64,000 nt of DNA. Source: Ornithobacterium rhinotracheale. GTDB lineage: Bacteria; Bacteroidota; Bacteroidia; Flavobacteriales; Weeksellaceae. A program made the position numbers and the translations under genes. Positions 26,105-63,379 of this stretch are shown in pieces. The stretch spans positions 1,461,501 through 1,525,500 of the forward strand of contig NZ_CP094846.1 in assembly GCF_022832975.1 (NCBI RefSeq), read 5' to 3'. Every line of letters starts with the position of its first letter. The first letter of the stretch is position 1. Below the pieces are notes generated by a model, which worked only from the letters and a program-made list of their open reading frames with translations, did no database searches and was not told the DNA's origin.

Positions 26105-26150
26105 TGTACGTCGTCAAACTAAAGTTTACTGAGGCTAATATAGTAAACAA

Positions 26151-27125
26151 TTAAATAAGTCCAAAACAATAATTTAATTTTCTTTGATTTAAAGTATTTA
26201 TTTTCACTTGTTTTCTTAGTTTTAAGATTTGGTCTTGTCTACCTAGGTATACATCTTCAGGGGTTAAATTATTTAAAGCTTCGTGATATCTTTGCGAGTT
26301 GTAATATTGCACAAATTTATCAATAGCCCTTTCGAGTTGCTCGGGAGCATAATAATGGTGTAATTTGACTACATTTTTCATGGAACGATGATACCGCTCG
26401 ATTTTCCCTTGTGTTTGCGGATGCAATGGTTTTCCATGTATGTGTCTAATTCCATAAGTGTTCATTAAGTAATCTTTGAGCTCCTTAGCAATATAACAAG
26501 GTCCATTGTCGGAGAGCAACACTGGCGGTTGCCTTCTATTTTTTATTTTGGCTTTACTGATGGCGTTATCAATGGTTCTTTTGACGTCTTGTGCAGTCAT
26601 ACTAGGACATAGTTCCCAATGAACGATATATCGGCTGTAGTCATCAATGACGGTGGATAAATAATACCATCCCCAACCGATAATTTTGAAATAAGTAAAA
26701 TCCGTTTGCCACATTTGATGCACGAAATTGGTTTTGGAATGAAACTGATCTGCTGCCGCCAAGAACCTATGCGGTGTATCGGCCAATAATCCCTGTTTTT
26801 TCAAAATGCGATAAACGGATGATTCTGATATGAAAACGCCTTGTTCATCAATGAACCTTGTGGCAATGAGCCTTGGTGTTTCCTGGGGATATTGCAAGGC
26901 AATCTCAACGACCATTTGTTTGATTCTATCGGGAATGCTATTCCATTGTTGCTTTTGATTACGTTTCGCTTTAAGGCCATCAATACCATTTTGGCTGTAG
27001 GCGTGATACCAATTATAAAAGGTTCTTTTGTGAATGCCTAATTGCTTTAAAGTCCTATTAACGCCTAATTCAGAGTTTTTTACCACCTCTATAATCTCTG
27101 CTTTTTCTTCTGCCGTTAGTCTCAT
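26151..27125 (-). CDS. IS3-family transposase OrfB (DDE integrase domain), copy A
   Basis: The 324-residue protein has an N-terminal HTH (LGIHKRTFYNWYHAY) and an rve-type catalytic core. The catalytic triad is D142 (WQTDFTYF), D206 (LLSDNGP) and E243 (QGKIERYHRS). The start lies 20 bases after the OrfA stop in the -1 frame. A -1 slip on the A8 run near the end of OrfA reads without a stop into OrfB, so the functional product is probably an OrfAB fusion. The protein is identical to that of copy B. Confidence 0.92.
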   Translation of the reverse strand: MRLTAEEKAEIIEVVKNSELGVNRTLKQLGIHKRTFYNWYHAYSQNGIDGLKAKRNQKQQWNSIPDRIKQMVVEIALQYPQETPRLIATRFIDEQGVFISESSVYRILKKQGLLADTPHRFLAAADQFHSKTNFVHQMWQTDFTYFKIIGWGWYYLSTVIDDYSRYIVHWELCPSMTAQDVKRTIDNAISKAKIKNRRQPPVLLSDNGPCYIAKELKDYLMNTYGIRHIHGKPLHPQTQGKIERYHRSMKNVVKLHHYYAPEQLERAIDKFVQYYNSQRYHEALNNLTPEDVYLGRQDQILKLRKQVKINTLNQRKLNYCFGLI

Positions 27126-27145
27126 ATATTTTTTAAATTGAGGGG

Positions 27146-27496
27146 TTAATCCAACAGATTTAAGCTTTTTTTTACAATGTCATAACGAATAACCAAATCG
27201 GCCAAAGACTCCTTCAATACGGTATTTTCTCTGCGTAAATCTTTGACTTGCTCACTGGTAGCTTCTCTTGTTTCGTTACCCGAAAGACGTTTCTTTCCTG
27301 CTTCAATGAACTCTTTACTCCATTTGTAATAAGTAGCTTCGCTGATGCCATATTTTCTGCACAGCTCTGCTACACTGAGCTCTGCACGTAAGCCTTCCAT
27401 GACGATTAAAATCTTTTGTTCTGCATTGTACACTTGGCGTGTATTACGGCGAACTTCTTTAATAAGCTTTTCGCTTTTTGTTTGTTTTTTTACCAT
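27146..27496 (-). CDS. IS3-family transposase OrfA (HTH DNA-binding), copy A
   Basis: The 116-residue protein has a helix-turn-helix (AELCRKYGISEATYYKWSKEF) and a C-terminal leucine-zipper-like helix (VKDLRRENTVLKESLADLV). Eight consecutive A (27166-27173 as T on the plus strand) near the 3' end are a candidate slippery site for -1 frameshifting to OrfB. Identical to copy B. Confidence 0.92.
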   Translation of the reverse strand: MVKKQTKSEKLIKEVRRNTRQVYNAEQKILIVMEGLRAELSVAELCRKYGISEATYYKWSKEFIEAGKKRLSGNETREATSEQVKDLRRENTVLKESLADLVIRYDIVKKSLNLLD

Positions 27497-27587
27497 GTTC
27501 TAAGTGGTTTTTGTAAAGTTAGTTTTTTCTTTTTTTAACTATACTATTTTTAACCTAAACTGGTAAACTTTTTGCTGACGATTTACA

Positions 27588-56007: not shown

Positions 56008-56064
56008 CTATAAAATATGGATTTTAGTATTTTTTTTTGCGATAAAAATTATTATTTACAAAGG

Positions 56065-56517
56065 CTAATCAGCAGGAAAGAAAACAGAATTTGTAGAAGT
56101 TACGCATACCTTTTTTTCAGATGGGATATAGGATAAAACGACTACTTTATCTTGCCCATATGATTGAAATCCTTTTTCCTTCCAGTCTTTGTTAGCTACA
56201 TGATTTTTAGGTATTAAGTAAACGTCATAACTATATCTATTTAAAAGAATAATAGAGCCAGGAAACACTCTATAGTATTCATTATAGATTGGATATTTTT
56301 CTTTAATCAGTTTATCTAGTTTTTTGTTAAAATTTATTATTTCCGTTTTTTGAAAAGAATCTCCTTTAAAAGAATAAAAAACGCCCTCGCTAGAGCCTAT
56401 TTTTATGTAATTAACGACTGATTTTATCTCGTTGGGCGGTGTGTACACTTTTTGTTGAGCATTCAAGTGTATTGATACTAAAAATGAAAAGAGTAATGAA
56501 AAGTTTATTTTGAACAT
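56065..56517 (-). CDS. Hypothetical secreted protein
   Basis: The 150-residue protein has a signal peptide ending LNAQ and a soluble part with mixed strands (YDVYLIPKNHVANKDWKEKG). It has no family that I recognise. The upstream region is a decayed IS end, which begins 19 bases before the ATG, so the original promoter may have been replaced. Confidence 0.65.
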   Translation of the reverse strand: MFKINFSLLFSFLVSIHLNAQQKVYTPPNEIKSVVNYIKIGSSEGVFYSFKGDSFQKTEIINFNKKLDKLIKEKYPIYNEYYRVFPGSIILLNRYSYDVYLIPKNHVANKDWKEKGFQSYGQDKVVVLSYIPSEKKVCVTSTNSVFFPAD

Positions 56518-56536
56518 TTTAATAGGTTTTTAATTC

Positions 56537-56660
56537 ATCTTAAAACTAAGAAAACAAGTGAAAATAAATACTTTAAATCAACGAAAATTAAATTATTGTT
56601 TTTGACTTATTTAATTGTTTACTATATTAGCTACGGTAAACTTTTGTTTGACGACGTACA
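56537..56660 (+). mobile_element. Decayed 3' end of an IS related to copies A and B
   Basis: The 124 bases match the last part of the IS: the end of OrfB (from ATCTTAAAACTAAG to the stop) and the right inverted repeat ending GACGACGTACA at 56660. Several substitutions relative to the intact copies show it is an older or different copy. The OrfB remnant is not functional. Confidence 0.85.
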
Positions 56661-56739
56661 ATAAAAATGACGATAGCGTAAATCTCTTTAAATATTTAGG
56701 AGAAAAATTTAATGTAAAAACAAAAGTTATACTAAAAAA

Positions 56740-57171
56740 ATGGAGCGAATAATAAATAATACAGAAATCTACATATGGAATGATAATGGTCTAATTAACA
56801 CTGAAGAATTGAGTTTTTTTTGTGAAGAAATAAATAAGAAATCAATGTTTCAATTCAATATAGAAAAAAAGAGTTTAAGTACTTACTTTTATCTATCAAA
56901 AAAGAATAGTTTGAATATTGATTTTTACGATAATGGATATGTTTTTTTTGTAGAAGGAGAAATATTAAATTGTATTTTGTTTCTTTATGAATTCGATAGA
57001 TTCTTTAAACAAAGTCATGAATTTTATGTTAGTCCAATACAAAGATTAGATGAAAATACTAAATTTTTATTTGAAAGAGGAATGAAAATTAAGGAGATAG
57101 GAGAATTTTTGGATAAAATTTTTAGAAATAAAGATTATTCCCAATTATTAAAAGAAATATTATCAATTTAA
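56740..57171 (+). CDS. Hypothetical AT-rich orphan protein bracketed by IS ends
   Basis: The 143-residue protein is rich in Phe, Ile, Asn, Lys and Glu, and shows no signal peptide or membrane helix. Segments such as LNIDFYDNGYVFFVEGEILNC look like beta strands, and the C-terminus is helical. Its AT content is higher than that of its neighbours. It lies between two outward-facing IS right ends (56660 and 57196), so it was probably acquired or captured between IS insertions. The size and composition would fit an immunity protein, but there is no sequence evidence for that. Confidence 0.6.
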   Translation: MERIINNTEIYIWNDNGLINTEELSFFCEEINKKSMFQFNIEKKSLSTYFYLSKKNSLNIDFYDNGYVFFVEGEILNCILFLYEFDRFFKQSHEFYVSPIQRLDENTKFLFERGMKIKEIGEFLDKIFRNKDYSQLLKEILSI

Positions 57172-57195
57172 CCTTTAGAAAATTAAGAAATAAAG

Positions 57196-57240
57196 TGTAC
57201 GTCGTCAAACTAAAGTTTACCATAGCTAATTTAGCAAAAA
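57196..57240 (-). mobile_element. Decayed right end of a second IS remnant, opposite orientation
   Basis: The sequence begins TGTACGTCGTCAAACTAAAG, identical for the first 25 bases to the right inverted repeat of copies A and B in reverse orientation, and then diverges (GCTAATTTAGC). The 3' limit is approximate. The body of the element is lost. Confidence 0.8.
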
Positions 57241-57277
57241 ATCTAATTCAATTGAAAATCCCCGCAAACTTTATCCG

Positions 57278-57310
57278 CAAAAAAATCGCTCAGCCAAAAC
57301 GACTGAGCGA
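57278..57310 (-). terminator. Intrinsic terminator after fsa
   Basis: TCGCTCAG and CTGAGCGA form an 8-bp stem, followed on the minus strand by TTTTTTTGCGG, 28 bases past the fsa stop. Confidence 0.8.
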
Positions 57311-61896: not shown

Positions 61897-61987
61897 TGTA
61901 AATCGTCAGCAAAAAGTTTACCAGTTTAGGTTAAAAATAGTATAGTTAAAAAAAGAAAAAACTAACTTTACAAAAACCACTTAGAAC

Positions 61988-62338
61988 ATGGTAAAAAAAC
62001 AAACAAAAAGCGAAAAGCTTATTAAAGAAGTTCGCCGTAATACACGCCAAGTGTACAATGCAGAACAAAAGATTTTAATCGTCATGGAAGGCTTACGTGC
62101 AGAGCTCAGTGTAGCAGAGCTGTGCAGAAAATATGGCATCAGCGAAGCTACTTATTACAAATGGAGTAAAGAGTTCATTGAAGCAGGAAAGAAACGTCTT
62201 TCGGGTAACGAAACAAGAGAAGCTACCAGTGAGCAAGTCAAAGATTTACGCAGAGAAAATACCGTATTGAAGGAGTCTTTGGCCGATTTGGTTATTCGTT
62301 ATGACATTGTAAAAAAAAGCTTAAATCTGTTGGATTAA
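61988..62338 (+). CDS. IS3-family transposase OrfA, copy B
   Basis: The 116-residue HTH protein (AELCRKYGISEATYYKWS) is identical to that of copy A. Its 3' end carries the A8 run at 62311-62318, where a -1 slip gives an open path to OrfB. Confidence 0.92.
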   Translation: MVKKQTKSEKLIKEVRRNTRQVYNAEQKILIVMEGLRAELSVAELCRKYGISEATYYKWSKEFIEAGKKRLSGNETREATSEQVKDLRRENTVLKESLADLVIRYDIVKKSLNLLD

Positions 62339-62358
62339 CCCCTCAATTTAAAAAATAT

Positions 62359-63333
62359 ATGAGACTAACGGCAGAAGAAAAAGCAGAGATTATAGAGGTG
62401 GTAAAAAACTCTGAATTAGGCGTTAATAGGACTTTAAAGCAATTAGGCATTCACAAAAGAACCTTTTATAATTGGTATCACGCCTACAGCCAAAATGGTA
62501 TTGATGGCCTTAAAGCGAAACGTAATCAAAAGCAACAATGGAATAGCATTCCCGATAGAATCAAACAAATGGTCGTTGAGATTGCCTTGCAATATCCCCA
62601 GGAAACACCAAGGCTCATTGCCACAAGGTTCATTGATGAACAAGGCGTTTTCATATCAGAATCATCCGTTTATCGCATTTTGAAAAAACAGGGATTATTG
62701 GCCGATACACCGCATAGGTTCTTGGCGGCAGCAGATCAGTTTCATTCCAAAACCAATTTCGTGCATCAAATGTGGCAAACGGATTTTACTTATTTCAAAA
62801 TTATCGGTTGGGGATGGTATTATTTATCCACCGTCATTGATGACTACAGCCGATATATCGTTCATTGGGAACTATGTCCTAGTATGACTGCACAAGACGT
62901 CAAAAGAACCATTGATAACGCCATCAGTAAAGCCAAAATAAAAAATAGAAGGCAACCGCCAGTGTTGCTCTCCGACAATGGACCTTGTTATATTGCTAAG
63001 GAGCTCAAAGATTACTTAATGAACACTTATGGAATTAGACACATACATGGAAAACCATTGCATCCGCAAACACAAGGGAAAATCGAGCGGTATCATCGTT
63101 CCATGAAAAATGTAGTCAAATTACACCATTATTATGCTCCCGAGCAACTCGAAAGGGCTATTGATAAATTTGTGCAATATTACAACTCGCAAAGATATCA
63201 CGAAGCTTTAAATAATTTAACCCCTGAAGATGTATACCTAGGTAGACAAGACCAAATCTTAAAACTAAGAAAACAAGTGAAAATAAATACTTTAAATCAA
63301 AGAAAATTAAATTATTGTTTTGGACTTATTTAA
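62359..63333 (+). CDS. IS3-family transposase OrfB, copy B
   Basis: The 324-residue DDE transposase is identical to the copy A protein (D142, D206, E243). Sequence identity between copies suggests recent transposition or gene conversion. The downstream 46 bases include the right inverted repeat. Confidence 0.92.
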   Translation: MRLTAEEKAEIIEVVKNSELGVNRTLKQLGIHKRTFYNWYHAYSQNGIDGLKAKRNQKQQWNSIPDRIKQMVVEIALQYPQETPRLIATRFIDEQGVFISESSVYRILKKQGLLADTPHRFLAAADQFHSKTNFVHQMWQTDFTYFKIIGWGWYYLSTVIDDYSRYIVHWELCPSMTAQDVKRTIDNAISKAKIKNRRQPPVLLSDNGPCYIAKELKDYLMNTYGIRHIHGKPLHPQTQGKIERYHRSMKNVVKLHHYYAPEQLERAIDKFVQYYNSQRYHEALNNLTPEDVYLGRQDQILKLRKQVKINTLNQRKLNYCFGLI

Positions 63334-63379
63334 TTGTTTACTATATTAGCCTCAGTAAACTTTAGTTTGACGACGTACA

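Follow-up and report, generated by a model that had tools for sequence, protein, structure and literature searches.

In the genome of the poultry pathogen Ornithobacterium rhinotracheale, a 535-bp segment between two facing right ends of an insertion sequence (IS) is very probably the 3' remainder of a toxin-immunity operon of foreign origin, from which the toxin has been lost and an orphan immunity gene has been kept. We propose that the segment originated in an operon for a polymorphic toxin, predicted to contain a nuclease domain, and its immunity protein. Of the toxin frame, the final ~31 codons would remain, overlapping a complete immunity gene of 143 codons. An IS right end lies inside this frame and an inverted right end just downstream of the immunity gene, so that the toxin body would have been lost while the antidote was left. 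The host most likely retains the gene because its protein would bind and block a toxin arriving from competitors. The protein is thus predicted to neutralise a toxin, the gene is presumably expressed, and the IS, because of its adjacency to the break, may itself have removed the toxin body.

The segment lies within a stretch of 64,000 nucleotides (hereafter, the window) of contig NZ_CP094846.1. The host genome comprises 2.42 Mb in two contigs, the second of which is 100% identical to the O. rhinotracheale plasmid NC_011414.1.

The lone gene and the putative toxin tail upstream of it

The segment contains one gene of 143 codons (positions 56740-57171, forward strand), the only open reading frame of at least 60 amino acids listed between the IS remnants, and its G+C content is 0.21, compared with 0.365 for the window. 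These values bear out an earlier note on this DNA, which had described a single 143-residue gene unlike its surroundings. What that note overlooked was the toxin tail at 56660-56752 (forward strand), the clue to the nature of the gene. Translation of positions 56657-56752 revealed an open frame of 31 codons that starts at the left IS tip, by which it is cut, and ends in a stop that falls 13 bases inside the start of the 143-codon gene, such that the two frames overlap.

A profile search of 395 genomes of the class turned up a homologue of the 143-aa product in G409, a distantly related genome of the Bacteroidia (E 4e-19, 34% identity). There, the homologue starts 7 bp past the end of a 365-aa ORF. 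This ORF ends in YISNDKASSKSLFHFLATKHNVPTEVIVSKWP, and the window tail reads YNKNDDSVNLFKYLGEKFNVKTKVILKKWSE. In local alignment, the tail matched the final 31 residues of the 365-aa ORF, up to its very C-terminus, with a score of 66, a value that none of 20,000 shuffles reached (best shuffle, 55); the first Y of the window tail is encoded by the TAC of the IS tip TACA, and that one match is fortuitous. We infer a toxin function for the 365-aa ORF from its setting, close to ORFs for an eCIS_core protein, an AAA ATPase and a PBECR1-like nuclease, and from the weak match of its C-terminal domain to Tox-REase-2 (E 0.0018, below the Pfam cut-off). Given both the match of the tail and the pairing of the homologue with this ORF, the window tail and gene are predicted to descend from a toxin-immunity pair. 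The G409 pair is the only toxin-linked homologue that we found.

The tail is present once in the host genome, and a search of the family with the 31-residue tail alone gave no convincing match. The nine tail matches that looked best were inspected, and in none did a toxin C-terminus precede a small gene of the 143-aa family. Two other candidates were set aside: a weak match to the toxin domain in genome G152, which proved to be an unrelated regulator-like protein, and a match in genome G381 that covered 52 residues of an ORF without a toxin beside it.

By the usual definition, an orphan immunity gene is homologous to a toxin-linked immunity gene and resides in a genome from which the cognate toxin is missing (PMC12247911). 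The homology is provided by G409. The G409 toxin domain, in turn, had no match at E 0.001 in the host genome or in the three other genomes of the genus, a search that a more diverged toxin could escape. With no sign of the toxin domain in these four genomes, the gene is predicted to be an orphan immunity gene in this sense.

Copies of the gene and the locus in relatives

Weeksellaceae bacterium TAE3-ERU29 (G003), another species of the genus, carries a copy of the 143-aa gene (93% amino acid identity) at another locus. This copy has no traces of an IS and lacks the IS ends found in the window; likewise, a search of the G003 genome with the resident IS of the host gave no match anywhere. Because the gene is found there without the IS, its spread can be explained with no part played by the element. 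The G003 copy is the last gene of a toxin-free array of short, co-oriented genes, which includes three 225-aa paralogues and, in the same cluster, an Imm11 immunity protein. Of the three 225-aa paralogues in G003, two are preceded by a short tail different from that in the window, KLYGDGDNNFVDIIKLHK followed by a stop, as is one 225-aa gene in the host genome, where the tail carries one substitution; its stop overlaps the start codon of the gene. In G003, a truncated form of this other tail precedes the 143-aa gene. By analogy with the window tail, these would be toxin tails, and it appears that immunity genes have moved or been duplicated together with a piece of the toxin 3' end.

The host genome contains a second toxin-free, immunity-like cluster (L103:8296-11700; contig C1, about 1,280,300-1,283,700), which consists of 232-, 229-, ~225- and 122-aa genes and a truncated copy of the 225-aa gene; the product of the 122-aa gene is weakly YezG-like. 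This cluster and the G003 array share 94.7% DNA identity over 795 bp, including the 225-aa relative.

Between the host genome and G003, dS is 0.246 for the 143-codon gene and 1.48 for transaldolase (tal). From this disparity in sequence divergence we conclude that the gene has in all probability moved horizontally between the two lineages, either directly or via a common source, which points to an exchange of immunity genes between O. rhinotracheale and a related species.

The interval between recF and tal, which holds the segment in the host genome, is variable: its contents differ among the host genome, G002 and G003, and the gene order differs in G001, in which tal has a different neighbour. 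In G002, the closest relative, with flanks that are ~95.8% identical, ~102 bp containing neither the gene nor an IS replace window positions 56010-57278, and in G003 an unrelated gene occupies the spot. The earlier note had reasoned that the gene would be ancestral if relatives carried it at this locus with no IS traces; the locus is instead empty of the gene in both G002 and G003, and the gene is thus not ancestral at recF-tal, as far as the four genus genomes show. The strain-specific interval missing from G002 also contains a secreted-type ORF of 150 aa (56065-56517, reverse strand; G+C 0.29), which adjoins the IS remnant and has no match in G001, G002 or G003.

IS remnants and the history of the segment

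The left remnant (56537-56660, forward strand) corresponds to IS positions 1360-1483, the last 124 bp of the element, with 95.2% identity, and ends in the tip TACA at 56660. The right remnant (57242-57196, reverse strand) corresponds to positions 1437-1483, the last 47 bp inverted, with 85.1% identity, and its tip is TGTA at 57196. At the latter tip, 25/25 terminal bases match the IS right end and 19/25 match the left end; at 56660, 24/25 match the right end. Both remnants are therefore IS right ends with tips that point at the gene. In all of this, namely the opposed pair, its orientation and the intact 25 terminal bases at 57196, the earlier note had read the remnants correctly.

A census drawn from sequence searches of the genomes placed ten full copies of this IS in the host genome. 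These copies are 100% identical to one another, and both remnants differ from them. Because all ten are identical, the remnants are, to judge by their sequence, either older than the full copies or of another IS lineage; the difference from copies A and B reported in the earlier note thus holds, while the greater age that it assumed is one of two options. The element itself resembles the IS3 family in its two ORFs, its TG...CA inverted ends and its orfB, which exceeds the cut-off of the NCBIfam IS3 model (182.2 bits; cut-off, 160). High, too, is the score of orfB against the IS481 model, at 194 bits, though it stays below the cut-off of 224 for that model. In contrast to IS3-family elements, the segment locus keeps terminal fragments only. 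A target duplication of 8-9 bp flanks two of the ten full copies, and no obvious duplication was seen at the other eight, including both copies in the window (26105-27587 and 61897-63379).

Several features of this IS are recorded here as side observations. G002 carries 6 full copies, against the 10 in the host genome, and in G001 (loci L049-L075) no full IS was matched: its copies are internally deleted, several of them at the same points (after 112 and after 481). The host genome also holds a MITE-like derivative of 133 bp that keeps both ends, with IS positions 1-93 joined to 1443-1483 (L020:2673-2805; contig C1, 1,401,172-1,401,304). Finally, the left remnant contains a possible outward promoter of the Bacteroidota type, TTTG-18-TATATTAG (56601-56630, forward strand), with one mismatch. 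One such site was seen in the IS right end versus 0.1 expected in shuffles, and the same site occurs in the full IS at 63319; aimed at the gene, it offers at most a weak lead.

How did the remnants come to flank the gene? The chances are about even that the fragment came by recombination and that IS copies inserted on either side of it at different times and then decayed. This history fits the inequality of the remnants in divergence and length, the many truncated copies of the IS in the host genome and its relatives, and the presence of the gene without an IS in G003. It must accommodate, however, the closeness of the two tips: in random-placement trials with the 14 right tips listed for the host genome, two facing right tips fell within 540 bp in ~1% of trials. 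A pairing by chance is thus unlikely though possible, and insertion hot spots would raise the figure.

The same ~1% argues for a second history, which is compatible with our interpretation of the segment but which we consider rather less probable than independent insertion: a relic of a composite transposon, in which an inverted IS pair would have brought the toxin tail and the immunity gene into recF-tal and the outer parts would later have been deleted. Consistent with this, the bases CCRTAGCTAAT are common to both remnants and missing from the ten young copies, and the presence of the segment at recF-tal is specific to the host genome. A composite transposon, however, is recognised by intact outer IS ends and a target duplication, whereas here both pieces are truncated outwards, with their outer ends and the target duplications gone. 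Moreover, the remnants are unequal (124 bp at 95% versus 47 bp at 85%), and the gene is found in G003, a genome without such an IS. The suggestion in the earlier note that the gene is cargo captured between IS copies therefore stands in part: a foreign gene does lie between old IS right ends and its capture is possible, but the G003 copy makes the IS dispensable for its spread.

We consider it improbable that the gene is a decaying, functionless ORFan, an AT-rich frame left between IS scars. In favor of this idea, the protein has few homologues and belongs to no family in Pfam or NCBIfam searches; weak matches to Est1 and DUF2204 fell below the cut-off and were dismissed. Neither this protein nor its G409 homologue matched an Imm family at the Pfam gathering score, and plasmid and viral collections contained no homologue of the 143-aa protein. 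The earlier note had proposed both profile searching and structure prediction; the former yielded the distant homologue in G409, while the latter gave a poor model (pLDDT 61.5) and a PDB fold search without a match, and a PDB sequence search with the G409 homologue returned nothing convincing. The ORFan idea is countered by a frame that is intact in three genomes, by the position of the homologue beside a toxin in G409, and by dN, which between the host genome and G003 is 0.031, for a dN/dS of 0.13 (one pair, 143 codons). Because of this ratio, the one sequence pair indicates that the gene has probably been kept as a protein under purifying selection.

Least probable by far is the proposal of the earlier note that the 535 bp form a minimal unit that an active transposase could mobilise via the facing ends: although the terminal bases are preserved at both tips and the ten identical full copies suggest recent IS activity, the polarity is wrong, such that the gene is flanking DNA for both ends; the host genome contains no second copy of the 535-bp segment, the G003 copy stands without IS ends, and, because the tips face the gene and the DNA delimited by each end lies on the far, truncated side, where the outer ends are lost, a transposase acting on the remnant ends would not be expected to excise the segment.

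Relation to known immunity systems

Orphan immunity genes as such are known; the putative antidote family seen here has no Pfam or NCBIfam model. We tentatively suggest, with somewhat less than even confidence, that the 143-aa protein is the founding member of a so far undescribed family of immunity proteins directed against a nuclease-like polymorphic toxin, that modules of a toxin tail plus an immunity gene spread in the genus, and that IS insertion in the toxin frame is one way of freeing the antidote. The present analysis makes a testable antidote of an orphan gene, and a short leftover toxin tail 5' of a lone gene may expose immunity genes that profile libraries miss.

The closest parallels are the orphan immunity genes found in gut Bacteroidales as part of acquired interbacterial defence systems, AID-1 and rAID (PMC12247911). 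Like the window gene, these are toxin-free, short immunity genes of Bacteroidota that were acquired horizontally and are ~30% identical to toxin-linked partners (PMC12247911). In contrast to them, the segment holds one gene, behind a toxin tail cut by an IS, and any link of it to the T6SS would be hypothetical. An rAID system is further marked by a tyrosine recombinase, a co-oriented immunity array and conserved intergenic motifs; the segment has one gene, no tyrosine recombinase was found among the ORFs near it, and none was recognised by eye in the 25 kb around the G003 array.

Two other systems share part of this organization. In polymorphic toxin-immunity operons of the restriction-endonuclease fold (Pfam Tox-REase), a small immunity gene lies right after the toxin C-terminus, as in G409, although the toxin in the window is cut to ~31 codons and the G409 domain matches Tox-REase-2 below the cut-off. 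Strings of esaG immunity paralogues directed against the T7SS toxin EsaD have also been described (PMC9484751). They differ from our case in phylum, proteins and secretion route, but they resemble the G003 array in being tandem immunity paralogues.
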